Shown one piece after another: positions 1 to 14,242 of a DNA stretch of 14,242 nucleotides (within the stretch, counting starts at the first letter, position 1; the number at the start of each line of letters is the position of its first letter). The DNA is from Rhodocyclaceae bacterium (GTDB lineage Bacteria; Pseudomonadota; Gammaproteobacteria; Burkholderiales; Rhodocyclaceae). Position numbers and translations under genes: made by a program. The DNA is taken from positions 1 through 14,242 of the forward strand of contig JADFDL010000019.1 in NCBI GenBank assembly GCA_018262875.1. The letters are read 5' to 3'. The notes beneath the pieces were generated by a model. The model was not told the origin of the DNA. It searched no databases and saw only the letters and a program-made list of their open reading frames with translations.

Positions 1-1087
<1,087 letters not shown>

Positions 1088-1191
1088 GGTACCGTCATGC
1101 GCTCAGGCCGTCGGTGCACCAGCAGCGCACCTTGCGGGAGAGGAAAACCGCAACCTGCCAGCTACTGAGACTGAGAGAAGGAGCGACCACG

Positions 1192-1572
1192 ATGCAACGG
1201 ATGATGCTGAAGTCCAAGCTGCACCGCGTGACGGTTACGCACTCGGAACTGCACTACGAAGGTTCCTGCGCGATCGACCAGGATCTGCTCGATGCCGCGG
1301 ATATCCGCGAGTACCAGCAGATCGACATCTACAACGTCAACAACGGCGAGCGCTTCACCACCTATGCCATTTCCGCCGAGCGCGGCAGCGGCATCATTTC
1401 GGTGAACGGCGCCGCGGCGCGCAAGGCCTCGCCCGGCGACCTGCTCATCATCGCCACCTACGCGAGCTACGACGAAGCCGAACTGGCGAAATTCGAGCCG
1501 GATCTGGTCTACGTCGATTCACGCAATCGCATGATGAACCAGCGCCACAAGATTCCCGTGCAATTGGCCTGA
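1192..1572 (+). CDS. panD: Aspartate 1-decarboxylase precursor
   Basis: PanD decarboxylates L-aspartate to beta-alanine, the second substrate of PanC. It is a pyruvoyl enzyme made as an inactive pro-protein that cleaves itself. The cleavage pair is visible as Gly24-Ser25 within HYEGSCAID; Ser25 becomes the pyruvoyl group. Lys9, His11 and the later [13 protein letters not shown] stretch are also conserved. The 126-residue length equals that of the E. coli enzyme. The start at 1192 is set by an AGAAGGAG ribosome site ending about 8 bases upstream and by the [12 protein letters not shown] N-terminus; an open extension back to 1114 is not family-like. About 100 bases separate it from panC, and a terminator follows directly, so it ends the panBCD operon. 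Confidence 0.96.
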
Positions 1573-1592: not shown

Positions 1593-1618
1593 AGCCCGCG
1601 CGACCCGCGGGCTTTTTT
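1593..1618 (+). terminator. Rho-independent terminator of the pan operon
   Basis: An 8-bp perfect stem, AGCCCGCG and CGCGGGCT, closes a 5-base loop and is followed by six T. It lies 20 bases after the panD stop. Its T-run overlaps the last codons and the stop of the convergent minus-strand gene (stop at 1617-1619). There is no T-run on the minus-strand side, so it should terminate plus-strand transcription only. Confidence 0.93.
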
Positions 1619-2534
1619 ATTTTCGGATGGAATGCATCAGGCTCGCCGCCGCGGCGAGCAGGAGGGCCGCGCCGACGTTGTGAGCGACGGCCAGCCAGAG
1701 CGAATAACCGCTCGCTACCGTCAGCATGCCGAGCAGGGCTTCCAGCACCAGCAAAGTCAGTGCCGCCAGTACGGCGTTGCGCGCCCGCGGCACGGCGTGC
1801 AGGCGCAACGCCACGACGGCGAGCAGCACGGCCGCCAGCGCGGCGGCGTAGCGATGCAGGAGATGCAGCGCCACCCCGCCGGCCTCGCCCGGCACGGCCG
1901 GGCCGGCCAGCGTGATGAAAGGATGCAACGCCGTCCAGCCATGCATCGACGGCCACCAGGCGCCCTGGCAATCGGGCAGCGTGGTACAGGCCGGCGCCGC
2001 ATAGCGCGCACCGATGAGCCCGCCGAGCAGCACCGTCAGCGTCAGCATCGCCAGCGCGACGCGGCAAAGCTGCCCGCCCGATCCCTGCTCCATCAACCGC
2101 GAGGGCTCTGACGTGATCGCCACCCGCCAGGAAAACGTCACCAGGCCGAGCCCGCCGATCAGGTTGATAAAATTTACCCACGCCATGCGCGGATCCGAAC
2201 TCCACACGCCGACCACGGAAAGAAACAGCATCAGCGCCAGCAGCAGCGTCGCGTAGCGGGCAGCCGGCTGCAGAGGCCGCGGCCGCCAGCAGCGCCACGC
2301 CAGCAGGATGCCCGCCAGCAGCGCCAGGGTGGCGACGATGCGGTGAGCGAGCCGAGCCCCCGCCCATGGCGCGTGCGGCACACCGGCCAGGATGCTTCCA
2401 TAGCAGGCGGGCCAGTCGGCGCAACCGAGGCCGGCGCCGGAAAGACGCAGGGTGGCGCTGACCGCCACCACCAGAACGGACAGCACACAGGTGAAAACTG
2501 CCAGCGCGCGGATGCGCCGGGTGCGCAGGCACAT
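1617..2534 (-). CDS. COX15/CtaA family protein, divergent heme A synthase homologue
   Basis: This is a 305-residue membrane protein with about eight helices. It has the COX15/CtaA duplicated four-helix layout, and each half carries a loop cysteine pair (Cys38/Cys44 in GCADWPAC, Cys183/Cys189 in CTTLPDC), as in the Bacillus-type enzymes. CtaA oxidises the heme O methyl group to make heme A. The C-terminal half keeps both heme-ligand histidines (His227 in LLHRY, His285 in VAHNVG). The N-terminal catalytic half keeps His64 (AHR), but Arg61 stands where the catalytic Glu of ExxHR is expected, and Asn124 stands where the second His is expected. It may therefore be an accessory or altered paralogue. 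I chose the ATG at 2534 because it gives the short family N-terminus; the in-frame ATG at 2558, 5 bases after the upstream gene's stop, is the alternative. It is the second gene of a two-gene minus-strand operon. Confidence 0.85.
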   Translation of the reverse strand: MCLRTRRIRALAVFTCVLSVLVVAVSATLRLSGAGLGCADWPACYGSILAGVPHAPWAGARLAHRIVATLALLAGILLAWRCWRPRPLQPAARYATLLLALMLFLSVVGVWSSDPRMAWVNFINLIGGLGLVTFSWRVAITSEPSRLMEQGSGGQLCRVALAMLTLTVLLGGLIGARYAAPACTTLPDCQGAWWPSMHGWTALHPFITLAGPAVPGEAGGVALHLLHRYAAALAAVLLAVVALRLHAVPRARNAVLAALTLLVLEALLGMLTVASGYSLWLAVAHNVGAALLLAAAASLMHSIRK

Positions 2535-2563
2535 GGAAATGTCCGGCGTGACCGCCATCCCGG

Positions 2564-3613
2564 TCAGAAAGACCGCAATTGGGCCGGCACCCGGAGTTCG
2601 TGGTTGAGCCATAGGAAGACGGCCATCAGCACCATGGATCCCCCCTGATGCATGGCGCCCAGGGCAACCGGAACGGCATGCAGAACCGTCAGGATGCCGA
2701 GCGTGATCTGCGCGGCCAGGACCACCAGCGCCAAGCCTGCGATCCTTTGCGCCCGCCGACGGTCCGGAAACTGGCGCAGCCTGAACCATAACCACGGCAC
2801 GAGGAAGGCCAGCAACCAGGCGCCCAGCCGGTGATCGAACTGGACCGTCGCCATGTTATTGAAGAAATTGAGATACCACGGTTCGATCATGAAGATTTCC
2901 GGCGGCACGAAATGGCCATTCATCAGCGGAAAAGTGTTGTAGGCCTTGCCCGCCCGGATGCCGGCGACGAAGCCGCCGGTGACGACCATGTAGCAGGCCA
3001 GCAGGAACAGCCAGAAGCCGAGGCGCTGCAGCCGGCGGTAACCCTCATGGGCGAAATAGTGCGAGCGTTCCTCGATCAGTCCCAGCGCCACCCACATCAT
3101 GGCAATGAAAATGACGAAAGCGAGGGACAGGTGGGCTGTCAGGCGGTACTGGCTGACGCGCGGATCGTCCACCAGCCCGCTCTTCACCATGAACCAACCC
3201 ATCGCGCCTTGCAGGCCGCCGAGGATGAAGATGCCGATCAGCCTGGGCACCAGCGGGCGATCGATCTTGCGCCGCAGCAAGAAATAAAGAAAGGGTAGAA
3301 AGAAGACCAGGCCGATGGTCCTGCCGAGCACGCGATGGAAGTACTCCCACCAGAAAATGCTCTTGAACTCATCCAGCGACATGCCGTGATTTACCTGTTT
3401 GTACTCGGGCGTTTGCTGGTATTTCGCGAATACCTCGCTCCATTCCGCCTGCGAAAGCGGCGGCAGGACCCCCATCAACGGCTGCCACTCGACAATCGAC
3501 AGGCCGGAGTGCGTCAGACGCGTCACGCCGCCCACGACCAGGGTGGCGAAAACCATGGCGGAACAGATGAAAAGCCACAGGGCGATATGTCGGCGGGCGG
3601 AATAATTCATCAT
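2564..3613 (-). CDS. ctaA: Heme A synthase (COX15/CtaA)
   Basis: Heme A synthase oxidises heme O to heme A in the inner membrane, supplying heme-copper oxidases. The 349-residue protein is of the longer, cysteine-free proteobacterial/mitochondrial COX15 type, with about eight membrane helices and a large first periplasmic loop. All four heme-ligand histidines are visible: His93 and His161 in the first half, His261 (FDHRLG) and His322 (AMHQGG) in the second. The catalytic glutamate is Glu90 in the EYFHR motif. Other family marks are GGVTRLTHSGLS near residues 28-39 and NTFPLMNG. I chose the ATG at 3613 (or its in-frame neighbour at 3610) because a TATAAT box about 50 bases upstream would put the mRNA start near 3653, which excludes the longer open frame to 3691. 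It is divergent from the oxidase genes at 3835, which probably use its product. Confidence 0.93.
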   Translation of the reverse strand: MMNYSARRHIALWLFICSAMVFATLVVGGVTRLTHSGLSIVEWQPLMGVLPPLSQAEWSEVFAKYQQTPEYKQVNHGMSLDEFKSIFWWEYFHRVLGRTIGLVFFLPFLYFLLRRKIDRPLVPRLIGIFILGGLQGAMGWFMVKSGLVDDPRVSQYRLTAHLSLAFVIFIAMMWVALGLIEERSHYFAHEGYRRLQRLGFWLFLLACYMVVTGGFVAGIRAGKAYNTFPLMNGHFVPPEIFMIEPWYLNFFNNMATVQFDHRLGAWLLAFLVPWLWFRLRQFPDRRRAQRIAGLALVVLAAQITLGILTVLHAVPVALGAMHQGGSMVLMAVFLWLNHELRVPAQLRSF

Positions 3614-3659
3614 CAGGACAGGTTTTTTGTAAGGATAATCGCTGATGGGACCAGCGCGG

Positions 3660-3665
3660 ATTATA
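3660..3665 (-). promoter_or_regulatory. -10 box for the ctaA pair
   Basis: The minus strand reads TATAAT here, a perfect sigma-70 -10 hexamer. It predicts a start near 3653 and a leader of about 40 bases before the ctaA ATG. I see no good -35 box at the usual spacing, which suggests an activator. The palindrome at 3719-3732 would be centred about 72 bases upstream of that start, a distance used by class I activators of the CRP/FNR family. Confidence 0.55.
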
Positions 3666-3718
3666 TGCGACAACATGACGCACTGCCGCATGCAAGTTAC
3701 TGCGTATCTGGGCGTTTC

Positions 3719-4014: not shown

Positions 4015-4560
4015 ATGAGTGCTATCAGCCCGCCCGCAGAGCGAATCTGGTGGAAGCAGCCGATCGACAAGCTTGAATTCATCTGGATCGCCATTGCCTT
4101 CGTCTGGTCGCTGGTGATGTTCGTCATGATGGTCTATTGGCATATCGCCGGCGGCCAGAACCTGTCGAACGAAACCTACAAGACGACCAAGGAGATGTTT
4201 GCCGCCAAGACGCAGGCCGTGGTCGACAAATACACGGTGCGCACCGGCACCGACGCCGAAAAGCAGTTCCCGGTCGTCAAGCCGCCCGCCGGCTCGGACA
4301 TCTACCTGATCGGGCGCCTGTGGGACTGGTGGCCGATATACGAACTGGAGAAGGGCAAGACCTACAAGCTGCACCTCTCCGCGATGGACTACATGCACGG
4401 CTTCTCGCTGCAGCCGCAGAACATCAATATCCAGGTTCACCCGAATTATGAGCACGTGGTGAAGATCACGCCGAACCAGTCGGGAACCTACTCCATCGTC
4501 TGCAACGAATACTGCGGCATCGGCCATCACACGATGGTCGGTCGCATCTACGTGAAATAA
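4015..4560 (+). CDS. CuA-containing subunit II of a B-family heme-copper reductase (NorS-like candidate)
   Basis: This subunit takes electrons from periplasmic cytochrome c (or a cupredoxin) and passes them through the binuclear CuA centre to subunit I. The 181-residue protein has a single N-terminal membrane helix (about 21-44) and a periplasmic cupredoxin domain. The CuA ligands are complete: His128 (YMHGF), Cys163, Glu165 (backbone), Cys167, His171 and Met174 in CNEYCGIGHHTM. One helix and short length are typical of the ba3 type. A GGGAG ribosome site lies 6 bases before the ATG. The intact CuA site says the donor is a soluble one-electron carrier and not quinol. With the next gene it forms either an oxygen reductase or, as the subunit I active site suggests, a nitric oxide reductase like NorSY. 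Confidence 0.93.
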   Translation: MSAISPPAERIWWKQPIDKLEFIWIAIAFVWSLVMFVMMVYWHIAGGQNLSNETYKTTKEMFAAKTQAVVDKYTVRTGTDAEKQFPVVKPPAGSDIYLIGRLWDWWPIYELEKGKTYKLHLSAMDYMHGFSLQPQNINIQVHPNYEHVVKITPNQSGTYSIVCNEYCGIGHHTMVGRIYVK

Positions 4561-4571
4561 GGGGCGTGTAA

Positions 4572-6254
4572 ATGGCTACGACTTACCGCATCTGCCCGCG
4601 ATCCGGGCTGCAATTCGACACCGCTGCTGAGAAGCTGATGCGCTGGAACGCCGTTGCCGGCGTGCTGGCGCTGCTGCTCGGCGGCATCATGGCGCTGGGC
4701 GTCATCCTCACCCGCTGGCCGGCGGTGCACCTGCTTCCGGCCGACCAGTTCTACCTGGCGCTCACGTCGCACGGCGTCAACATGCTGTTGTTCTGGATCA
4801 TCTTCTTCGAGATGGCCGTGCTCTATTTCGCCTCGTCCACGCTGCTGCATTGCCGCCTGGCGACGCCGAAGATCGCCTGGGCCGGCTTCTGGCTGATGGC
4901 CATCGGCGCCGTCATGACCAACGTCGCCATCTTCCAGGGCGAGTCGAGCGTGATGTTCACCTCCTACGTGCCGATGCAGGCCAAGCCGCACTTCTATCTC
5001 GGCCTGATCCTCTTCGCCGTGGGTGCATTGATCGGCTGCTTCGTCTTCCTCGGCACGCTGGTCGTGGCCAAGGCGGAGAAGACCTACGAAGGCTCGATCC
5101 CGCTGGTCACCTTCGGCGCGTTGACGGCAGCCATCATCGCCATCTTCACCATCGCCTCCGGTGCCGTCATCCTGATCCCGACGCTGCTCTGGTCGCTCGG
5201 CTACATCCGGGAAATCGACACGATCATGTATCGTATCGTCTGGTGGGCCATGGGCCACAGTTCCCAGCAGATCAACGTGTCCGCGCACGTCGCCGTCTGG
5301 TACGCCGTTGCCGCTATCGTCTTCGGCGCCAAGCCGATGTCCGAGAAAGTCAGCCGCTCGGCTTTCTTCCTCTACATCCTGTTCCTGCAACTCGCCAGCG
5401 CCCACCACCTGCTGTCCGACCCGGGCGTCGGCTCCGAGTGGAAGGTGGTCAACACCTCCTACTTCATGTACTTCGCGGTACTGGCTTCGATGATCCATGG
5501 CATGACCGTGCCGGGCGCCATCGAGCAGGCACAACGCGCCAAGGGGTACAACAAAGGCCTCTTCGAGTGGCTGCGCAAGGCGCCGTGGGGCAACCCGGCC
5601 TTCTCGTCGATGTTCCTCTCGCTGGTCGGTTTCGGCTTCCTCGGCGGCATCTCCGGCGTCATGATGGGCACGGAACAGCTGAACCTGCTGATCCACAACA
5701 CCATCTATGTGCCGGGCCACTTCCACGCGACCGTCGTCATCGGCACCACGCTGGCGTTCATGGGCCTGACCTACTTCCTGGTGCCGGTGTTGTTCAGGCG
5801 TGAAGTGCTGTTCCCCGGCTTCGCCAAGCTGCAGCCCTACCTCTTCGGCCTCTCCATGTACGCCGTGGCGCTGGTGATGATGGGCGCCGGTACGCTGGGC
5901 GTTTCCCGCCGTCACTGGGACATGGCCTTCGCCGGCGCGGGAATGGCCTACGAGTGGCCGGGCGCCGCCTACCTGATGATGGGCCTGACCGGCATCGCCG
6001 GCGTGGTCGCAATCATCGGCGGCGGCGGCTGGATCCTGCAGATCGTCTTCTCGCTGCTCTTTGGCAAGCGACTCGACGAAGGCGAGACGCGCAGCACGCC
6101 GATCCCGCTGACCCTGCCGCCGCAGACGGGCGCACATGCCGCGCACGTCGGCACCCCGGGCACCATGGTGCTGGCGCTGGTCTTCCTGGTTTCGTTCATC
6201 CTGTACTACTTCGTGAACTGGAAATACCTGTCCTCGCTGTGGGGCATGGCGTAA
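4572..6254 (+). CDS. B-family heme-copper reductase subunit I lacking the active-site tyrosine (NorY/sNOR-like candidate)
   Basis: This is the catalytic subunit, a 560-residue protein with about 13 membrane helices. The second half closely follows the Thermus ba3 pattern (HHLLSDPGVGSEWK, APWGNPAF, HNTIYVPGHFH). The ligands are all present: His67 and His385 for the low-spin heme, His383 for the high-spin heme, and His229, His278 and His279 for CuB. In oxygen reductases the residue four after the first CuB histidine (GHPxVY) is the cross-linked Tyr. Here the motif is GHSSQQ and the residue is Gln233. Loss of this Tyr is a known feature of NO-reducing relatives. The order IIa, II, I, then SenC recalls norS-norY-senC of ammonia oxidisers. 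It follows subunit II by 11 bases and ends in tandem hairpins. Membership of the B-family is firm; NO reduction is inference. Confidence 0.88.
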   Translation: MATTYRICPRSGLQFDTAAEKLMRWNAVAGVLALLLGGIMALGVILTRWPAVHLLPADQFYLALTSHGVNMLLFWIIFFEMAVLYFASSTLLHCRLATPKIAWAGFWLMAIGAVMTNVAIFQGESSVMFTSYVPMQAKPHFYLGLILFAVGALIGCFVFLGTLVVAKAEKTYEGSIPLVTFGALTAAIIAIFTIASGAVILIPTLLWSLGYIREIDTIMYRIVWWAMGHSSQQINVSAHVAVWYAVAAIVFGAKPMSEKVSRSAFFLYILFLQLASAHHLLSDPGVGSEWKVVNTSYFMYFAVLASMIHGMTVPGAIEQAQRAKGYNKGLFEWLRKAPWGNPAFSSMFLSLVGFGFLGGISGVMMGTEQLNLLIHNTIYVPGHFHATVVIGTTLAFMGLTYFLVPVLFRREVLFPGFAKLQPYLFGLSMYAVALVMMGAGTLGVSRRHWDMAFAGAGMAYEWPGAAYLMMGLTGIAGVVAIIGGGGWILQIVFSLLFGKRLDEGETRSTPIPLTLPPQTGAHAAHVGTPGTMVLALVFLVSFILYYFVNWKYLSSLWGMA

Positions 6255-6316: not shown

Positions 6317-6387
6317 CATTCCCGCATTTTCATCCCCACTTGACGCCGACGCTTGACGCTCCTCGCGATGGCGGAGATCATCCATGC

Positions 6388-7251
6388 ATGCATAGCACAC
6401 AGAAATCCTTCCTGCGCGGCCTTGCGGCCTTCCTGCTGGCTTGCGCCTCCGCGCTCGCCGCCACGCCGAATGCCTCACCGGCCGTTTCGTCGCGTCCGCT
6501 CGATCCCGCGTTGGCGCCAAACGTGCCGGTCCTCGACCAGGACAAGGCGCTCGCGCTGTCGCAATCCGTCGTGAACCAGCCGATCGGCGACTTCGTCCTG
6601 CTCAATCGCGAAGGCAAGCCGACGCGCCTGGCCGATTTCCGCGGCAAGCCCCTGCTGGTGAGCTTCATCTACACCGGCTGCTTCGAGGTCTGTCCGACCA
6701 CCACGCGCAACCTGCAGAAAGCCGTTACCAACACGGTGGCGGTGCTCGGCGCGGATCGCTTCAACGTTGTCAGCATCGGCTTCAACCAGCCCTTCGATTC
6801 GCCCTCGGCCCTGAAATCGTTTGCCACGCAGAACGGCATCGTCTTCCCCAACTGGGAGTTCCTCAGCCCGGCGCAGGCGATTCTCGCCGAGCTGACGGCC
6901 GGTTTCGGCTTCAGCTATGCGGCCACGCCGGCCGGCTTCGACCATATTGTGCAGGTCACCCTGGTGGACGCGGACGGGAAAATCTACCGCCAGATCTATG
7001 GCGAGGCGCTCAGCACGGACATGCTGGTCGAGCCGCTCAAGCAACTCATCACTGGTGCGCCGGTAGCACAGAGCGGCGCAGTAGCCGACCTGGTGGACCG
7101 CGTGCGCATCCTTTGCTCGGTGTACGACCCGAACACCGGAAAATACCGGCTGGACTACGTCCTGTTTTTTGAAATCGGCGGCTTTCTCACTTTTGCCGGC
7201 TACATTCTCTGGTATATCCGGCGCGGCCTGCGCCAATCAAAAAACGCTTGA
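6388..7251 (+). CDS. senC: SCO1/SenC/PrrC family copper chaperone, membrane anchored
   Basis: SCO/SenC proteins deliver copper to, or reduce, the CuA site of subunit II in the periplasm. The 287-residue protein has an N-terminal signal (about 1-24), a thioredoxin-fold core with the copper ligands Cys98 and Cys102 (GCFEVCP) and His186 (FDHIVQV), the conserved SVYDPNTGKY near 244-253, and an unusual C-terminal membrane helix (about 256-277). The signal holds LLAC (Cys19), which could be a lipoprotein site; ALA just after it is an alternative signal-peptidase site. The start at 6388 has a GGAG 12 bases upstream and begins the signal; an open extension to 6340 adds nothing signal-like. Its place after a CuA oxidase operon fits a role in assembling that enzyme, though a terminator lies between them. 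Confidence 0.9.
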   Translation: MHSTQKSFLRGLAAFLLACASALAATPNASPAVSSRPLDPALAPNVPVLDQDKALALSQSVVNQPIGDFVLLNREGKPTRLADFRGKPLLVSFIYTGCFEVCPTTTRNLQKAVTNTVAVLGADRFNVVSIGFNQPFDSPSALKSFATQNGIVFPNWEFLSPAQAILAELTAGFGFSYAATPAGFDHIVQVTLVDADGKIYRQIYGEALSTDMLVEPLKQLITGAPVAQSGAVADLVDRVRILCSVYDPNTGKYRLDYVLFFEIGGFLTFAGYILWYIRRGLRQSKNA

Positions 7252-7336: not shown

Positions 7337-8911
7337 GTGAGCCCTTTCAACGCCTTCCGCGAAGGCGGCCTGTCCGTCCAGCAGCGCATCGAGTCCTTTT
7401 TCGACGGGCTGTTCGGCGCTGCCGGCAACCCCTGGCGCCATCTCGGCGCACTCGGCTTCTATTTCGCCTGGCTGGCGATGGGCACCGGCATCTACCTCTT
7501 CATCGTGCTGGATACCGGCATCGAGGACGTCTACACCTCGATCAATTACTACACGCACGAGCAGTGGTGGCTGGGCGGCATCCTGCGCAGCCTGCACCGC
7601 TATTCCGCCGATGCCCTGGTGGCGGTGATGCTGCTGCACCTGGCGCGCGAGTTCTTCTACGGCCGCTACCACGGCTTCCGCTGGTTTTCCTGGATCACCG
7701 GCGTGCCGGTGATCTGGCTGGTCTACGCCTCCGGCATCGGCGGCTACTGGCTGGTATGGGACAAGCTCGGCCAGTTCTCCGCCATCGCCAGCGCCGAGTG
7801 GTTCGACTGGCTGCCGATCTTCGCCGATCCGGCGACGCGCAACTTTCTGATGCCGGAATCGCTCAACGACCGCTTCTTCTCGCTACTGGTGTTCCTCCAC
7901 ATCGGCATCCCGCTGCTGCTCATGCTGGCGCTATGGGCGCACCTGCTGCGCGTCTCGCGCCCCAACGTGTTCCCCTCGCGCGCGCTCGGCTGGGGCAGCT
8001 TCGCCATGCTACTGGCGCTCTCGCTCGCCAAGCCGACGGTGTCGCACGGCCGCGCCGACCTCGCCGTCGTGCCGACCGCGCTCGATTTCGACTGGTACTA
8101 CCTGTTCATCCATCCGCTGATGTACCTCACCTCACCGGCCGGCCTGTGGGCCATCGCCGGCGCACTCACGCTGTTGCTGCTCGTCCTGCCGCTGCTGCCC
8201 CACCGCAAGCAGGAGCCGATCGCCGTCGTCAACCCGCTCAACTGCAACGGCTGCCGGCGCTGCTTCGAGGACTGTCCCTTCACCGCCGTGGTGATGGAGC
8301 CGCACCCGGACAAGCCCGGTCATGAACTGGCCCGCGTCATTCCCGACCTGTGCGCCAGTTGCGGCATCTGCGCCGGCGCCTGCCCCTCCTCGACGCCCTT
8401 CCGCAGCGTCGAGGAACTGGTCACCGGCATCGACATGCCGCGGCAGCCGGTTTCAAAGCTGCGCGAAGAGATGGAGCGCAAGATCGCCGCACTGGCCGTT
8501 TCGCCGAAAATCGTCGTCTTCGGCTGCGAGTGCGCCGCCGACGCGCGCCGCCTGGAAAGCGCCGGCACCGCCGTGCTGAACCTGATGTGCAGCGGCCTGC
8601 TGCCGCCGTCCTTCGTCGAGTACGCCCTGCGCGGCGGCGCCGATGGCGTGCTGGTGGCCGGCTGCCGTGAAGGCAGTTGCGCCTATCGCTTCGGCACGCA
8701 ATGGACGGAGCAGCGCCTGCGCGGCGCGCGCGAGCCGCATCTGCGCACCGCCAATATGCCGCTGGAACGGCTGCGCCTGGCCTGGGCCGACCCTCACGAA
8801 AGCGGCAGCCTTGAGACCGCGCTGAATGAATTCCGCAAGCATCTGCAAACCCTGGGCGCTGACGAAAAACGTCCGCGCGCCTATACTCGGAGAATCGCCC
8901 ACCATGGATAA
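7337..8911 (+). CDS. Cytochrome b fused to 2x[4Fe-4S] ferredoxin and MvhD-like iron-sulfur domain
   Basis: This is a 524-residue three-part redox protein. Residues about 1-210 are a cytochrome b/b6 four-helix core with both heme ligand pairs at the usual spacing of 14 (His87/His101, His188/His202). Residues 210-288 add more helices but no PEWY quinol-oxidation motif; FDWYYLF lies at 251. Residues 300-350 carry two classic CxxCxxCxxxCP clusters (Cys303-313 and Cys339-349). Residues 392-465 resemble the MvhD/FlpD hydrogenase iron-sulfur subunit, with cysteines 397, 399, 418, 443 and 448. It probably moves electrons between a soluble low-potential donor and the membrane. I chose the GTG at 7337 because the predicted transcript starts at 7311; the frame is open back into the SenC gene, and no Shine-Dalgarno is visible. 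The gene overlaps the next by 8 bases. I know no characterised protein with this architecture. Confidence 0.82.
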   Translation: MSPFNAFREGGLSVQQRIESFFDGLFGAAGNPWRHLGALGFYFAWLAMGTGIYLFIVLDTGIEDVYTSINYYTHEQWWLGGILRSLHRYSADALVAVMLLHLAREFFYGRYHGFRWFSWITGVPVIWLVYASGIGGYWLVWDKLGQFSAIASAEWFDWLPIFADPATRNFLMPESLNDRFFSLLVFLHIGIPLLLMLALWAHLLRVSRPNVFPSRALGWGSFAMLLALSLAKPTVSHGRADLAVVPTALDFDWYYLFIHPLMYLTSPAGLWAIAGALTLLLLVLPLLPHRKQEPIAVVNPLNCNGCRRCFEDCPFTAVVMEPHPDKPGHELARVIPDLCASCGICAGACPSSTPFRSVEELVTGIDMPRQPVSKLREEMERKIAALAVSPKIVVFGCECAADARRLESAGTAVLNLMCSGLLPPSFVEYALRGGADGVLVAGCREGSCAYRFGTQWTEQRLRGAREPHLRTANMPLERLRLAWADPHESGSLETALNEFRKHLQTLGADEKRPRAYTRRIAHHG

Positions 8912-9446
8912 CGCCGCTGTGAGCCACGCCCACGCCTTCAAATTCACGCCGACCTCGATCGTCGGCCAGGCCCTCTTCTACGGCCTCTTCGCCGTCATCA
9001 TCGGTTATTTCTCGACTGCGCCGAGATACCACCATCTGGCGCCCGACCAGGCGCTGATCAAGCTCTCCTTCAGCCACCACGGCCAGCCGGTCACCGAGTG
9101 CCGCAAGCGCACCGCCGAGGAACTGGCCAAGCTGGCGCCGAACATGCGCGCACCGATGGTCTGTCCGCGCGAACGCTCGCCGGTGACGGTGCAGATCGAA
9201 CTCGACGGCAAGCCCCTGCACAAAAGCGTGATCGCCCCCTCGGGACTGTCGAAAGACGGCACCTCGACCACCTACCAGCGCTTCGAAGTGCCGGCCGGCG
9301 AGCACACGCTGGCGGTGAAAATGAACGACAGCATCCGCATCGAGGGCTTCAACTACGTCAAGGAAGAGAAGCTGACGCTGAAGCCGGCGCAGATCGTGGT
9401 GATCGACTTCGCTGCCGACAAGGGCGGCATCTTCTTCGCGCAATGA
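8904..9446 (+). CDS. Membrane-anchored periplasmic protein of unknown function
   Basis: I do not recognise a family. The 180-residue protein has a 20-residue cytoplasmic N-terminus, one membrane helix (about 19-37) and a periplasmic domain rich in alternating beta-type segments. The domain has two cysteines, Cys66 and Cys87, that could form a disulfide, and the pairs His43-His44 and His58-His59. There is no CuA motif (CxxxCxxxHxxM) and no CxxCH heme site, so it is not a standard subunit II or a cytochrome c. The ATG overlaps the end of the cytochrome b gene (ATGGATAA) and a CGGAG lies 11 bases upstream; the stop overlaps the next ATG (ATGA). This tight coupling suggests a structural or assembly subunit of the complex formed with its neighbours. 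A role like FixH or a degenerate subunit II is possible but unproven. Confidence 0.75.
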   Translation: MDNAAVSHAHAFKFTPTSIVGQALFYGLFAVIIGYFSTAPRYHHLAPDQALIKLSFSHHGQPVTECRKRTAEELAKLAPNMRAPMVCPRERSPVTVQIELDGKPLHKSVIAPSGLSKDGTSTTYQRFEVPAGEHTLAVKMNDSIRIEGFNYVKEEKLTLKPAQIVVIDFAADKGGIFFAQ

Positions 9447-10828
9447 CGCTGTTCGCCGGCGCCTCCGGCGCCGATTACTCGCTGGATGTCACGCATCCGG
9501 GACTGCGGCGTCTTGCCCGCGGCTGGCTCTGGCTCGGCCTGCTGGCGCTGATCGGCTCCGGCCTGCTGTCCGTCGTGCTGGTGCTCTCGCGCGCGCCGCA
9601 GTTCCAGAACCTGATGCCGGTCGGCGACTTCTTCCGCGTCGCCCTGGTGGTGCACGTCGATCTTTCCGTGCTGGTGTGGTTCGTCTCCCTCGGCGGCATC
9701 CTGTGGACCCTGTCCGGCAGCACGCGCGTCCTTGGCCTGAATGGCGCCGCCCTGGCCGTCGCCGGGCTGGGCACCCTGCTGATGACGGTCTCGCCCTTCG
9801 TCGGCCGCGGCGGGCCGGTGATGGCCAACTACATTCCCGTTCTCGACGACCCGGTCTTCCTCTGGGGGCTGGCGACCTTCGCCGCCGGCGCGGTGCTGCT
9901 GGTGGCGCGCAGCCTCATCGCCCTTCCTGCCTGGGTTGCGCCGCGCGACGGCGCCGATGCGCTGCGCAGCGGCCTCGCGCTCGGCCTCTTGCCGGCCGTC
10001 ATCGCCCTCATCGCCTTCGCCTGGTCCTGGTTCACGACACCGGCCGACCTCTCCGGCAAGGCCTATTACGAAATCCTCTTCTGGGGTGGCGGCCACGCCC
10101 TGCAGTTCATCTGGACGCTGTTCATGCTGGCGGCCTGGCTGTGGCTGGCCAGCGCCTGCGGCGGGCGCGTGCCGATGTCGCCGCGCGTCGCCCTGCTCTG
10201 CTTCGCGCTCGCCACCGTCTGCGCGCTGGCGATCCCCGTCGCCTACCTGCTGTGGCCGGCGCATACCGTCGAGCATCGCAACCTGCTCACCTTTGCCATG
10301 GGCCTCGGCGGCGGGCTGCCGATCCTGCCGGTGGCGCTGGCTGCGCTGCTGGCGGTGCGGCCCGGCCGGCCCATCGCCGATGACGCCCGCCCCTTGCGCG
10401 CCGCGTTATATTCCTCGCTTGCCCTGTTCTGCTTCGGCGGACTGATCGGCTTCACCATCGCCGGCAGCAACGTCAAGATTCCGGCGCATTACCATGGCGC
10501 CATCGTCGGCGTCACGCTGGCGCTGATGGGCCTCGTCTACCACCTGCTGCCGCGCCTGGGCTACGGCCTGCCGGCGCGCAAATGGGCAACCTTCTCCTCC
10601 TATTGCTACGCAGTGGGCCAGGCCATGCACATCGGCGGCCTGATGTGGTCGGGCGGCTACGGCGTGCAGCGCAAGGTGGCCGGCGCCGAGCAGGCCCTGA
10701 AAAGCACCAGCGAAATCGCCGCCATGGGCATCATGGGCCTGGGCGGCCTCGTCGCCATCGTCGGCGGCATCGTCTTCGTGCTGGTGGTCATCGGCGCGAT
10801 GCGCCGTTCGCCACCGGCAACGGACTGA
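9443..10828 (+). CDS. Highly divergent heme-copper oxidase subunit I homologue with altered CuB site
   Basis: This is a 461-residue protein with about 12 membrane helices, read as a heme-copper oxidase superfamily subunit I. His71 (VVHVDLSVLVW) fits the low-spin heme ligand of helix II. His349 and His351 (AHYHGAIVG) fit the paired heme ligands of helix X. His218 (GGGHALQF) fits the first CuB ligand. The usual HH pair is absent: the matching region reads HTVEHRN, giving Glu277-His278 with His274 nearby. Four residues after His218 is Phe222, so the catalytic tyrosine is also missing. No CuA subunit or cytochrome c gene is close by. The ATG overlaps the upstream stop (ATGA). The chemistry is probably not standard oxygen reduction; NO reduction, as in the non-canonical NOR families, is the leading guess. 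Assignment to the superfamily is fairly firm; function is not. Confidence 0.78.
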   Translation: MTLFAGASGADYSLDVTHPGLRRLARGWLWLGLLALIGSGLLSVVLVLSRAPQFQNLMPVGDFFRVALVVHVDLSVLVWFVSLGGILWTLSGSTRVLGLNGAALAVAGLGTLLMTVSPFVGRGGPVMANYIPVLDDPVFLWGLATFAAGAVLLVARSLIALPAWVAPRDGADALRSGLALGLLPAVIALIAFAWSWFTTPADLSGKAYYEILFWGGGHALQFIWTLFMLAAWLWLASACGGRVPMSPRVALLCFALATVCALAIPVAYLLWPAHTVEHRNLLTFAMGLGGGLPILPVALAALLAVRPGRPIADDARPLRAALYSSLALFCFGGLIGFTIAGSNVKIPAHYHGAIVGVTLALMGLVYHLLPRLGYGLPARKWATFSSYCYAVGQAMHIGGLMWSGGYGVQRKVAGAEQALKSTSEIAAMGIMGLGGLVAIVGGIVFVLVVIGAMRRSPPATD

Positions 10829-10835
10829 ACTTGCC

Positions 10836-11018
10836 ATGGCCGATCCGCAGAAGGTCGCCGAAGCCGTGCGCCAGGCCTGTGTCGAGGCCGCGCTCGACGC
10901 CTATGAGGATGCGCAGGTCAGGGGACTGTGCCGCGAGGGCGCATGGGAAGTCGCCATCGATGCCGTCCGCATGCTGGATGTCGCAGCGGTGATCGCCGCC
11001 GCAGAAAGAAAGAATTAG
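10836..11018 (+). CDS. Small conserved-type hypothetical protein (60 aa)
   Basis: This is a 60-residue, soluble, mostly helical and alanine-rich protein. It contains the core QACVEAALDAYEDA followed by GLCREGAWEVAIDAVR; its two cysteines, Cys15 and Cys32, are 17 apart. I recall similar small unnamed proteins in betaproteobacteria but can give no function. It begins 8 bases after the divergent oxidase stop, so it is the last gene of that operon, though the ribosome site is weak. Its TAG stop overlaps the TAA of the convergent minus-strand gene by two bases. The codon use is like its neighbours, which supports a real gene. Confidence 0.65.
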   Translation: MADPQKVAEAVRQACVEAALDAYEDAQVRGLCREGAWEVAIDAVRMLDVAAVIAAAERKN

Positions 11019-12142
11019 CGCCGCGCTGCAATCCGCAGCGCCTGCGCCACAAAGGCAGCGAGTCCGGCCAGTGCCAACCAGGCGCCCGGCGGCCAGCCGG
11101 CCGCAACCAGCCAGCCAGCCGCAACAAAAGTCAGTCCCCGCAGTACGGCGAAGCGGCCCAGCGTCTCGCGCGCCGCACGGTGCCAGTCCGTCTGTGCGCC
11201 GGGCTTCAGCCACAGCGGCAGCAACTGGCTGGCGGCGCCGCTGACCAGCGGCAGGAGGAAGGCCAGCAGGAAACCGAAGACCGCATCGCCGCCCGCCAGA
11301 CGGCGCTGGGCATGCAGCGCACTCAGGAACAGCAGCGCCAGCAATCCCGCCAGCGCCAGCGCCAGCGAGGGTGCGGCGCCGTGGACACGCAGCATCGCGC
11401 GCGGGAAGCGCACCACCCAGGCGGTGCCGAGCAATGCGACCGGCAGGAACAGCAGCACCAGTCCGGCATAGGCCAGCGGCGGCCACCATGCGGCACCCGC
11501 CGCCGTCAGCAGCACGCCGGCGACGGCGAGCGGCAGATCGCGGCGCAACCGCCCCGCCGCATCGGGATCCGGCTGGCCGGCGGCAGTCGGCAGCAGCACG
11601 GTGAGCGTGCCCAGCGCGGTGAGACCGATAAAGCCGAGCGTGTTGAGATGCAGATGGAACAGACGCAGCGCCGGACGATGATCTGGAAGGAATTCCATCG
11701 CCAGCACGGCCAGCAAGGCCAGGATCAGGCAGCCGACGGCCGCCAGGTACCAGCGCAGGCACGGATGCGGCGCACCGAGCGCGGCACGTGCGCAACGCAC
11801 CATCCAGACGGCCATGGCCAACGCAAAAGTCAGTCCCGCCAGGACGGCGATGCGGATGCCGATCTGAAAAAAACCGGGCAGCAGAAAAGCGGCGGCGGCC
11901 ACCAGGCCGGCGCCCAGCATGGCCGGCGGGATGACCTGCACCCTGGCCTGCGGCGGGCGGCCGCGCGTGAGCACCGGCACGAAATGCATCATGGCGCCGA
12001 AGATGAGCGGCATGATGCCGGCGGCGAAGCCAATGTGCGCCGCAGCGGCGGGGGAAGCCGCACCGGCGAAGGCCAGCGCGATCGCCGCGGCGAAGGCGGC
12101 GAAGACGCAGGCAACGAGAAAGGGAAGCATGGTTTTTGTCAT
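11015..12142 (-). CDS. Polytopic membrane protein with HxH motif, possible heme-copper oxidase-like fold
   Basis: This is a 375-residue, very hydrophobic protein with about 11-12 helices. Two helices carry histidine patterns resembling helix X of heme-copper oxidases and NO reductases: His36 and His53 in HIGFAAGIM..MHFVP, and His163/His165 in FHLHLNTLGFIGL, followed by a G..LLPT end. A third pattern, ASQLLPLW, ends near 311. It has neither a CuB HH pair nor a tyrosine motif. I cannot name the family; NnrS, another polytopic heme protein of NO metabolism, is a neighbour in concept, but its motifs are not seen. I chose the ATG at 12142 because the longer frame runs into an intergenic repeat. 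The repeat arm supplies a GCGGGAA that may serve as ribosome site. It lies downstream of the DUF2249 gene, probably in the same transcript. Confidence 0.7.
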   Translation of the reverse strand: MTKTMLPFLVACVFAAFAAAIALAFAGAASPAAAAHIGFAAGIMPLIFGAMMHFVPVLTRGRPPQARVQVIPPAMLGAGLVAAAAFLLPGFFQIGIRIAVLAGLTFALAMAVWMVRCARAALGAPHPCLRWYLAAVGCLILALLAVLAMEFLPDHRPALRLFHLHLNTLGFIGLTALGTLTVLLPTAAGQPDPDAAGRLRRDLPLAVAGVLLTAAGAAWWPPLAYAGLVLLFLPVALLGTAWVVRFPRAMLRVHGAAPSLALALAGLLALLFLSALHAQRRLAGGDAVFGFLLAFLLPLVSGAASQLLPLWLKPGAQTDWHRAARETLGRFAVLRGLTFVAAGWLVAAGWPPGAWLALAGLAAFVAQALRIAARR

Positions 12143-12144
12143 TA

Positions 12145-12236
12145 TTCCCGCCGTCATCCTCGGACTTGATCCGGGGAAAGCGGGAATCCACTCCTTGGCA
12201 GGGGCCCCGGGGCCCCGCCTGCGCGGGGACGACAAT
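12145..12236. repeat. Intergenic palindromic repeat element
   Basis: This gap between two minus-strand genes is built from inverted repeats: TTCCCGC (12145-12151) with GCGGGAA (12180-12186), a doubled palindrome GGGGCCCC GGGGCCCC (12201-12216), and a hairpin CCCCGC-CTGC-GCGGGG (12213-12228). Its minus-strand reading frame gives EWIPAFPG and SPRMT-like peptides, the mark of a very common proteobacterial dispersed intergenic repeat. I see only one copy in the window. It could act as an mRNA-stabilising or attenuating structure between the two genes. Confidence 0.75.
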
Positions 12237-12238
12237 AG

Positions 12239-12502
12239 TCAGGCCTGCTTCTTGATGAAGTCGATGACGATCGCGCCCGGCTCGCGCTGCACGTAGTTGA
12301 TGTCGACCTTCTCGCCGTAGCGGGCGCGCAACTGGTCGAGCAGCGGCAGCGGATCGTGGTCATTGCAGAAGCGCATCGTCTCGCCGGCGTACAGCGCGTC
12401 GAGCGCGCCGAAGATGGCGGCATGGCGGAAGCGCTTGGCGATGCCGCGCGCGTCGAAGGGATAGAGCTGATCGGCTTGCAGATGCAGATGGGGATTGGAC
12501 AT
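12239..12502 (-). CDS. DUF2249 domain protein
   Basis: This is an 87-residue soluble protein with the DUF2249 pattern: the LYPFDARGI start, RHAAIFGALDAL (residues 26-37), then ETMRFCNDHDPLPL (41-54), in which NDHDP is the family signature, and a C-terminal strand with REPGAIVIDF. The fold is expected to resemble SirA/TusA-like small proteins. The biochemical role is unknown; in denitrifiers such genes often sit near NO-related genes and hemerythrin-like proteins. The start at 12502 is set by an AGGAG about 7 bases upstream. The frame is open to 12592, but that part runs through the promoter palindrome. The gene is the first one downstream of the divergent FNR-type promoter, supporting a link to the redox genes. 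Confidence 0.88.
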   Translation of the reverse strand: MSNPHLHLQADQLYPFDARGIAKRFRHAAIFGALDALYAGETMRFCNDHDPLPLLDQLRARYGEKVDINYVQREPGAIVIDFIKKQA

Positions 12503-12550
12503 GTCATTACTCCTGTTGTGGGATTTGGCAGCGCATAGTGCTGCGAAGGA

Positions 12551-12620
12551 ATTGTCGTTGTCGTATGCTGGCGCAGCCTTGATGCAAATCATGGCGGTTA
12601 AATTATTAAACCCTTATATT
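12551..12620. promoter_or_regulatory. Divergent FNR/DNR/NNR-type promoter
   Basis: The palindrome TTGAT-GCAA-ATCAT (12579-12592) differs by one base from the FNR-family consensus. For the plus strand, TATATT at 12615-12620 sits exactly where a -10 box should be if the palindrome is at -41.5 (start 12627). For the minus strand, GACAAT (read from 12556 to 12551) sits at the same mirrored distance (start 12544). Leaders are about 40 bases before the cytochrome b ATG and about 42 before the DUF2249 ATG. One bound dimer could activate both directions; the plus-strand -10 is stronger. Confidence 0.72.
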
Positions 12621-12666: not shown

Positions 12667-14242
12667 ATGCTCAAGCTCATCCACAAAACGCTGCAATGGT
12701 TCTTCATGCGCGCCGAAGGCCTCTTCAACATCGCCTTCGGCGACAAGCTGAATCCACTCTACCACCTCGGCACCATCACCTTCTTCCAGTTCTGGCTGGT
12801 CTCGATCAGCGGACTCTACCTGTACGTCTTCATGGACACGGGAGTGACGGATGCCTATCTTTCGATGGAGCGGCTCACCCACCAGCAGTGGTGGCTAGGC
12901 GGCATCATGCGCAGCGTTCACCGCTATGCCTCGGACGGCATGATTCTCACCATGCTGCTGCACATGGTGCGCCATTTCGCCTTCGACAAGTACCGCGGCT
13001 TCCGCTGGTTCTCCTGGGCCACCGGCGTCATCCTCATCTGGCTGGTGTACATCTCCGGCATCAACGGCTTCATGCTGCCCTGGGACAGGCTCGCGCAATT
13101 CGTCACCGTCGCCACGGCCGAAATGCTCGACTGGATCCCGATCTTCAGGGGCGCGCTGATCCGCAACTTCATTTTCGAGGGCGCGGTCAACGACCGCCTG
13201 TTCACCCTGCTTGCCTTCGTGCACCTCGGCGCGCCGCTGTTCGTCGTCATGCTGATGTGGATCCACGTGCAGCGCGTGCCGCGTTCGCACACCAATCCGC
13301 CGCGGCCGATCTGGATCGCCGTGCTCATCACCATGCTGGTGCTTTCCCTGGCGAAACCCGTGGTAAGCCAGGGGCCGGCCAACCTGTCGGTGGAGGTCGC
13401 CTCCCTCGATTTCGACTGGTTCCTGCTGCCGATCTATCCGCTCATCTACGAATGGCCGCTGGAGCGTCTCTGGATGTTCCTGATCGGCGCCAGCGCACTG
13501 TTGTTCTTCATGCCCTGGCTGCCGCCCAAGCTGCGCCGCGGCACCAGTGCGGAACTGCTGATCAGCGTGCATCCGGACAACCGCACGGTCAAGGCGCGCT
13601 TCGACGAACCGATTCTCGACGCCGGCCTGCGCGGCGAAATCAACCTGCCCTACGACTGCCGCAACGGCGGCTGCGGCCTGTGCAAGTGCACGGTGCTCAA
13701 TGGCGAGGTCGATCCCGGCGTCTACCAGCCTGGCGCGCTCAGTCCGGCCGAGCGGGCGCAGGGAAAGGTCCTCATGTGCTGCGCCACGCCGCTCTCCGAC
13801 ATCGAGATCGAGTACGCGCCGGAGTTCGCCCTGACGCGCGCCGCGCCGAAGGAATACGTTGGCACCGTCGCCCGCATGGAGAAACTCACGCACGACGTCA
13901 TGGGCGTGGTCGTCAAGCTGCCCGAGGGCCAGAGCGTTTCCTTTGTCGCCGGCCAGTACATCAACATCATCCTCGACGACGGCGAGCGCCGCGCCTTCTC
14001 CTTCGCCAGCGCGCCGCACATGGCCCACGACATCGAGCTGCAGATCCGCCTGGTGCCGGGCGGGCGCTTCACCAGCCACGTCTTCGAGAAGATGAAGGTC
14101 GGCGACGCCATCCGCTTCGAGGGGCCGCTCGGCGACTTCGTGCTGCGCGAATCGAACCGGCCGATCGTCTTCGTCGCCGGCGCCACCGGCTTCGCGCCGG
14201 TGAAGAGCATGGTCGAGGACGCCTTCCATCGCGGCCTGCACC
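12667..14242 (+). CDS. Cytochrome b fused to [2Fe-2S] ferredoxin and FAD/NAD(P)H reductase (3' end cut by window)
   Basis: The first 525 codons are present, with no stop before the window end. Residues about 1-205 form a cytochrome b core with both heme pairs spaced 14 apart (His85/His99, His186/His200). More helices follow to about 285. Residues 296-385 are a plant-type [2Fe-2S] ferredoxin: Cys331, Cys336, Cys339 and Cys371. Residues 396 onward are a ferredoxin-NADP reductase-type module with the FAD motif RAFSFAS (442-448) and the start of the pyridine-nucleotide motif, VAGATGFAPVKSM (503-515). The likely flow is NAD(P)H to FAD to [2Fe-2S] to hemes b. Its cytochrome part is a clear paralogue of the protein at 7337 (shared QWWLGGI, GFRWFSW, LSLAKP, LDFDW). 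The start at 12667 has no clear ribosome site, but no other in-frame start is near. Confidence 0.85.
   Translation, partial: MLKLIHKTLQWFFMRAEGLFNIAFGDKLNPLYHLGTITFFQFWLVSISGLYLYVFMDTGVTDAYLSMERLTHQQWWLGGIMRSVHRYASDGMILTMLLHMVRHFAFDKYRGFRWFSWATGVILIWLVYISGINGFMLPWDRLAQFVTVATAEMLDWIPIFRGALIRNFIFEGAVNDRLFTLLAFVHLGAPLFVVMLMWIHVQRVPRSHTNPPRPIWIAVLITMLVLSLAKPVVSQGPANLSVEVASLDFDWFLLPIYPLIYEWPLERLWMFLIGASALLFFMPWLPPKLRRGTSAELLISVHPDNRTVKARFDEPILDAGLRGEINLPYDCRNGGCGLCKCTVLNGEVDPGVYQPGALSPAERAQGKVLMCCATPLSDIEIEYAPEFALTRAAPKEYVGTVARMEKLTHDVMGVVVKLPEGQSVSFVAGQYINIILDDGERRAFSFASAPHMAHDIELQIRLVPGGRFTSHVFEKMKVGDAIRFEGPLGDFVLRESNRPIVFVAGATGFAPVKSMVEDAFHRGLH

Follow-up and report, generated by a model that had tools for sequence, protein, structure and literature searches.

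The window analyzed here, a 14,242-nucleotide stretch of Rhodocyclaceae DNA that forms part of contig C110 in a genome 54% complete, carries a conserved eNOR-type gene cluster, in which the genes for a predicted nitric oxide (NO) reductase, NorSY, lie together with genes for heme and copper supply and for accessory membrane redox proteins. On balance we lean slightly toward reading two of these proteins, a fusion of cytochrome b, ferredoxin and MvhD domains (the fusion) and a periplasmic protein held by one membrane helix (the anchor), as an electron-transfer module dedicated to eNOR, and a third, a heme-copper oxidase homolog whose gene begins at position 9443 (the 9443 protein), as a heme-binding helper. 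A preliminary description of this DNA had joined the same three proteins into a new redox complex with the 9443 protein as its catalytic subunit. Open reading frames (ORFs) were called across the window, and its proteins were searched with Pfam and NCBIfam profiles (Table 1).

NorSY and its active site

The operon had been described as having no CuA subunit, which proved to be incorrect: an intact CuA-bearing subunit II, NorS, is encoded just upstream of a full subunit I, NorY. The CuA ligands of NorS (C163, E165, C167, H171 and M174) did not vary in any of the 67 aligned rows. Likewise, H67, H229, H278, H279, H383 and H385 of NorY, among which H229, H278 and H279 bind CuB, were invariant in all 68 aligned rows, as was Q233. 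The nearest solved relatives of NorY were ba3-type oxygen reductases (best E 9.2e-47); alignment to the Thermus thermophilus ba3 oxidase placed Gln233 at the position of the active-site Tyr of the oxidase, which NorY lacks. Because replacement of this Tyr by Gln is the published mark of eNOR (PMC8756737, Table A4), we read 4015–6254 as encoding a probable eNOR-type nitric oxide reductase, and NorSY is predicted to reduce NO here. Gln was also found at this position in NorY homologs on plasmids of Thermus (47% identity), Thermomicrobium (44% identity) and Defluviimonas, and nirS lies approximately 3 kb from the Thermus homolog. That NorSY contains heme a is something we infer, because a 2022 review, in the part available, restricts heme A as a prosthetic group to the heme-copper oxygen reductases (PMC9145763).

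Comparison with published enzymes places NorSY closest to eNOR, in which the CuB and heme His, the Gln and a CuA cupredoxin encoded just upstream are likewise found (PMC8756737, available sections). The norSY-senC cluster of ammonia oxidizers, assigned to sNOR, similarly encodes NorSY and SenC together (PMC6967387, available sections); however, sNOR is set apart by description, its published active-site residue being Asn and not Gln (PMC8756737, Table A4).

Conservation of gene order

A genome scan confirmed at least 537 relatives, and the best 80, selected for their similarity to the 9443 protein and hence with a 9443 gene by construction, were compared with the window. Among the matches listed, the closest named relatives were Rhodocyclales-type metagenome-assembled genomes and Candidatus Desulfobacillus denitrificans. 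Cultured carriers such as Curvibacter sp. PAE-UM and Comamonas granuli NBRC 101663 were also listed. Across the resulting 81 loci, the anchor gene was recognized in 81, the fusion in 77, SCO in 75, norY in 72, a second fusion joining cytochrome b to a flavoprotein (cytb/flavoprotein) in 72, norS in 68, cyoE in 59 and COX15 in 27. In each of the 72 loci with norY, this gene stood upstream of the three genes and on the same strand. Where norY was not recognized (nine loci), the locus begins inside or near the cluster: in eight the first recognized gene is no more than 200 bases from the locus end, and in L106 the distance is 1.5 kb.

The main same-strand order, norS-norY-cyoE-SCO-fusion-anchor-9443-cytb/flavoprotein, was found exactly in 29 loci, and a second common order, norS-norY-cyoE-SCO-cytb/flavoprotein-anchor-fusion-9443, exactly in 12. 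The gene directly upstream of the anchor gene (82 anchors) was the fusion in 60 cases and cytb/flavoprotein in 19. The window has the order norS-norY-SCO-fusion-anchor-9443-cytb/flavoprotein, with cyoE not in it and 85 bases between the end of the SCO/SenC gene and position 7337. The adjacency of the three genes is therefore not peculiar to this DNA, and they travel together in many genomes. Their reported coupling was confirmed as to the same-strand ORFs and the 8-base overlap (8904–8911) and corrected as to the second overlap, which is 4 bases (ATGA, 9443–9446) and not 3. A start codon giving the 4-base overlap was found in 57 of the 64 loci, among the 80, that have the anchor ahead of the 9443 gene, a count for which the starts nearest the stop were picked, which favors overlap.

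Co-occurrence across genomes

Among 300 sampled Burkholderiales genomes, 23 were found to carry norY, 23 the anchor, 23 the 9443 protein and 22 the MvhD-type fusion (one cut at a contig end). Co-occurrence was close to one to one: norY occurred with the anchor in 22 genomes, with the 9443 protein in 22 and with the fusion in 22, and all four occurred together in 21. Among the exceptions, G297 had the fusion at a contig edge, with the anchor and 9443 protein not found; G179 had the anchor near a contig edge, with norY not found; and G171 had a more distant 9443 relative alone. The 9443 gene of G208 lay on the opposite strand, a few kilobases off. Examination of 397 Pseudomonadota genomes revealed eNOR in 20, of which 19 (all but G401) carried the anchor and all 20 a 9443 relative (E 8e-80 or better), mostly unlinked and, in G446, a distant one only.

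Eighteen eNOR loci from outside the class of the window were also compared. The fusion and anchor were both near eNOR in nine (L116, L121, L124, L125 and L127 to L131), and a 9443 gene was inside the fetched stretch in one of these, L129, at approximately 10 kb from the fusion/anchor pair. In G397 and G413, which belong to the remaining nine, the anchor was on the eNOR contig, 13–20 kb away. A Defluviimonas plasmid carried norS-norY-cyoE-SCO-fusion-anchor, with no 9443 gene in the 25 kb covered. In ten loci outside the window's order (the nine genome loci and the Defluviimonas plasmid), the fusion and anchor stand next to eNOR with no 9443 gene adjacent, so that the three proteins, proposed to be one complex, do not constitute an obligate one. 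On the evidence of gene content, the fusion and anchor appear to go with eNOR, with the 9443 protein as a separate companion.

Domains of the fusion and anchor

The fusion had been described as a di-heme cytochrome b with two [4Fe-4S] clusters and an MvhD-like domain, and this description held. Pfam identified cytochrome b, two Fer4 and FlpD/MvhD domains (FlpD E=2.6e-18), and four heme His (H87/H101 and H188/H202), eight cluster Cys and C397, C418, C443 and C448 of the MvhD domain were invariant in 77 aligned rows, window included, making the ligand set complete for two b hemes, two [4Fe-4S] clusters and a four-Cys MvhD site. The further claim that the fusion joins membrane hemes to cytoplasmic Fe-S clusters was also judged to be right. 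The four heme His and their spacing resemble those of cytochrome b6 (PDB match 1.3e-15); unlike cytochrome b6, these proteins have Fe-S or flavin domains fused C-terminally, and the fusion has an invariant DW at 252–253, about where PEWY, the quinol-site motif, sits in quinol-oxidizing b cytochromes.

Residues 295–510 of the fusion match the C-terminus of HdrA2 (ferredoxin plus MvhD, E=1.9e-28), with the difference that this pair is fused here to cytochrome b. When the HdrA2 model alone was searched, none of 23 genomes had a match above the model cut-off among the matches listed; within that same list, the best match was the fusion itself in ten genomes (G046, G072, G073, G099, G134, G200, G285, G330, G420 and G432) and weaker HdrA-like pairs were found in eight (G002, G010, G116, G124, G161, G351, G369 and G389). 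In the latter the pairs measured approximately 430 and 740–820 residues where the frames were whole, with the MvhD-like end on the second member; these pairs presumably resemble QmoAB, a name that may also suit some of the partial matches.

The anchor had no Pfam or NCBIfam match, and structure searches gave no informative fold match. Its AlphaFold2 model (predicted local distance difference test score 94.4) comprised a helix at residues 16–38 followed by strands, forming one helix and a beta-sandwich, and C66 and C87 were invariant in 63 rows. On the Defluviimonas plasmid, a gene for a hemerythrin-family protein (L113, 17517–17921, + strand) comes right after the anchor gene.

We propose that the fusion works together with the anchor as a membrane module that transfers electrons specifically for eNOR. 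Such a module would most likely exchange electrons between the quinone pool and carriers in the cytoplasm, either Fe-S or NAD(P)H-linked, and would thereby keep eNOR supplied. The direction of electron flow is one that we infer, as are the roles given to every accessory protein.

The 9443 protein and its family

The 9443 protein has the 12-helix fold of heme-copper oxidase subunit I, and its top Foldseek matches were ba3-type oxygen reductases. The low-spin heme His on transmembrane helices (TM) 2 and 10 and the high-spin heme His on TM10 (H71, H349 and H351) were invariant both in 79 rows and in 37 rows, and H218 on TM6 was retained and invariant. In contrast to the ba3-type enzymes, the CuB His pair on TM7 is replaced by Ala-Tyr in the window. 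None of the 37 aligned 9443-family rows had the first TM7 His, with which a profile alignment agrees, and the second position, Tyr in the window, was His in 12 of the 37; this set leaves out six loci, four without a gene picked and two with over-long frames. The relatives keeping one TM7 His were those of L138 to L143, L145, L146, L149 to L151 and L160, of which 11 (all but L160) are from eNOR genomes. Thus, the oxidase fold and the heme ligands expected of a heme-copper enzyme are present, but the CuB site appears to be largely lost. CuB is probably missing from the 9443 protein, which is unlikely to be the reductase because neither TM7 CuB His is present. With these ligands lost and two heme sites kept, it would most likely act as a heme-binding helper, in heme a handling or as an electron relay, for heme-a enzymes.

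The neighbors of 9443 relatives were recorded in 40 further loci (L129 and L139 being one place, and L176 coming from the order of the window). A heme A synthase gene (COX15) lay within 3 kb of the 9443 relative in 18 of these, each within approximately 240 bases, and was not found that close in the other 22. The 18 loci belong to families f84, f86, f90, f94, f96 and f101, with nine from f86, and in L162 and L171 the two genes overlap stop to start. Genes that we take, from sequence likeness, to encode aa3 oxidases stood beside some 9443-family loci. A heme O synthase gene lay within approximately 150 bases of a 9443 relative in L022, L024 and L027, all of the same family. These three loci are among 26 from nearer relatives, in none of which was there a COX15 in the short stretch covered. 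Because COX15, heme O synthase and aa3 genes are its neighbors, the family appears to be tied to heme a enzymes in general. A gene for a small CuA-type cupredoxin was also seen approximately 3 kb from the 9443 relative (L162, 13044–13595, − strand, and f86 relatives), in genomes without an eNOR match. As a tentative extension, the 9443 family may be a widespread heme-copper branch that gave up CuB and is now a dedicated heme a factor, either a heme A synthase partner or a heme a carrier, which in eNOR clusters would work with cytochrome b/ferredoxin fusions delivering electrons for heme a synthesis or NO reduction.

Alternative explanations

A number of observations weigh against an eNOR-dedicated module with a 9443 helper. 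The sampled genomes share ancestry, and the co-occurrence counts are not independent tests. No MvhD-type fusion was among the matches found in Burkholderiales genome G056, nor in Castellaniella sp. S9 (L112), where the order was norS-norY-SCO-anchor-9443-cytb/flavoprotein. In the other nine of the 18 eNOR loci outside the class, the fusion/anchor pair was outside the stretch fetched (short in L117 and L133). The 9443 family had a background of 38 in 239 genomes, of which 19 had no listed eNOR match, indicating that the family is not eNOR-specific, provided that these 19 are among the genomes covered by the eNOR scan, which lists only some negatives. The TM6 His and the one TM7 His kept in 12 of 37 relatives would make a two-His metal site possible in those proteins. 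NorSY could be an oxygen reductase instead; for sNOR, a related enzyme, published work has argued for a role as an oxidase (PMC6967387, available sections). Finally, the expected electron donor to a CuA-bearing NorS would be periplasmic and not a cytoplasmic Fe-S module.

The main rival, possible but doubtful in our estimation, is that these genes form a cofactor-assembly module, in which the 9443 protein is a partner of heme A synthase or delivers heme a to NorY/COX1, heme A synthase receives its electrons from the b-type cytochrome fusions, and the anchor acts in assembly as other periplasmic factors with a single helix do. The closeness of 9443 relatives to COX15 and heme O synthase genes is in its favor, as are the two COX15-type genes in the window, the frequency of cyoE and SCO in the cluster loci, and the loss of the TM7 His pair, which speaks against catalysis. 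Mitochondrial COX15 requires ferredoxin and ferredoxin reductase (PMC13213658, available sections), and ferredoxin-bearing membrane proteins are encoded here with COX15-type genes nearby. However, in the Burkholderiales sample the distribution of the fusion and anchor follows that of eNOR, and COX15 was recognized in just 27 of 81 cluster loci. Further, heme A synthase needs O2, whereas NO reduction matters at low O2, and the restriction of heme A to oxygen reductases in the same review counts against this reading (PMC9145763, available sections). No bacterial precedent was found in the literature searched.

It is improbable that the 9443 protein is a membrane sensor or scavenger of NO or O2, whose CuB-less heme pocket binds gas without turnover and tunes eNOR or aa3 respiration. 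Conserved heme ligands and TM6 His, the lost TM7 pair and neighboring NO- or O2-reducing enzymes would fit this role; however, COX1 was the only domain found on the protein with Pfam and NCBIfam, with no signaling domain, and the frequent pairing with COX15 would be left unexplained. Least probable of all is the original proposal of a new membrane reductase whose catalytic subunit, the 9443 protein, draws its electrons from the cytochrome b/Fe-S fusion, for although the coupled genes, conserved order, COX1 fold, heme His, TM6 His and single TM7 His of some relatives agree with it, the intact TM7 pair is missing from every row, the cluster itself encodes a complete NorSY, and the fusion/anchor pair and 9443 relatives each occur apart, the former beside eNOR without an adjacent 9443 gene and the latter without an eNOR match.

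Other features of the window

The polytopic membrane protein encoded at 11015–12235 may resemble NnrS. This gene and that of the DUF2249 protein also stand between the 9443 and cytb/flavoprotein genes in the nearest relatives, and the membrane protein was not recognized in the more distant loci compared. ORFs ahead of the cluster at 191–1572 (+ strand), which we take to be panC-like and panD-like, occupy the same place in several near relatives.

Table 1. Predicted genes of the window, with coordinates, strand and supporting evidence
Feature	Coordinates	Strand	Evidence
Second COX15/CtaA-like protein	1617..2795	-	Pfam COX15-CtaA E=1.6e-32
Heme A synthase (COX15/CtaA)	2564..3691	-	Pfam COX15-CtaA E=1.6e-113
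norS, CuA subunit II of eNOR-type enzyme (predicted)	4015..4560	+	COX2 E=2.9e-4, just under cut-off; CuA ligands
norY, eNOR-type subunit I (predicted)	4572..6254	+	COX1 E=1.3e-62; TM6 H229..Q233, H278, H279, H67, H383, H385
SCO1/SenC copper protein	6385..7251	+	Pfam SCO1-SenC E=4.1e-14
Fusion: di-heme cytochrome b, two [4Fe-4S] sites, MvhD/FlpD domain	7337..8911	+	GTG start
Anchor: N-terminal helix and beta-sandwich domain	8904..9446	+	No Pfam/NCBIfam match; invariant C66, C87
9443 protein, heme-copper oxidase homolog	9443..10828	+	Pfam COX1 E=2.3e-13
Polytopic membrane protein, no family assigned	11015..12235	-	No Pfam or NCBIfam match
DUF2249 protein	12239..12592	-	Pfam DUF2249 E=5.8e-26
Cytb/flavoprotein fusion: cytochrome b, [2Fe-2S] ferredoxin, FAD/NAD reductase domain	12667..14241	+	Pfam Cytochrome_B, Fer2, FAD_binding_6; cut by window end

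Novelty and implications

The gene set had been presented as undescribed. This holds for the conserved accessory redox genes, for which no characterized complex was found in the literature searched, but not for the eNOR enzyme beside them, which is known already. Relative to the published eNOR, the cluster adds genes for the cytochrome b/MvhD fusion, the anchor, the heme-copper oxidase homolog and the cytb/flavoprotein, which go unmentioned in the available sections of PMC8756737. Neither the accessory set nor the apparently CuB-less 9443 family was found in the literature searched, and both are possibly new, with priority uncertain given that the fullest eNOR paper is outside that coverage. 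The fullest description of eNOR is said to be that of Murali et al., PNAS 2024.

The database names "cbb3-type cytochrome c oxidase subunit I" and "hydrogenase iron-sulfur subunit" are misleading for such proteins, and genome surveys that rely on them could count too many oxidases and hydrogenases. Should the 9443 family prove to be a heme a factor, this would be relevant to two points left open in the available part of the 2022 review (PMC9145763), namely the insertion of heme A into subunit I and the unclear role of Surf1. Should eNOR prove to be supplied by the module, this would reveal how a little-studied class of NO reductase, and hence N2O production, connects to cell metabolism in many Proteobacteria.

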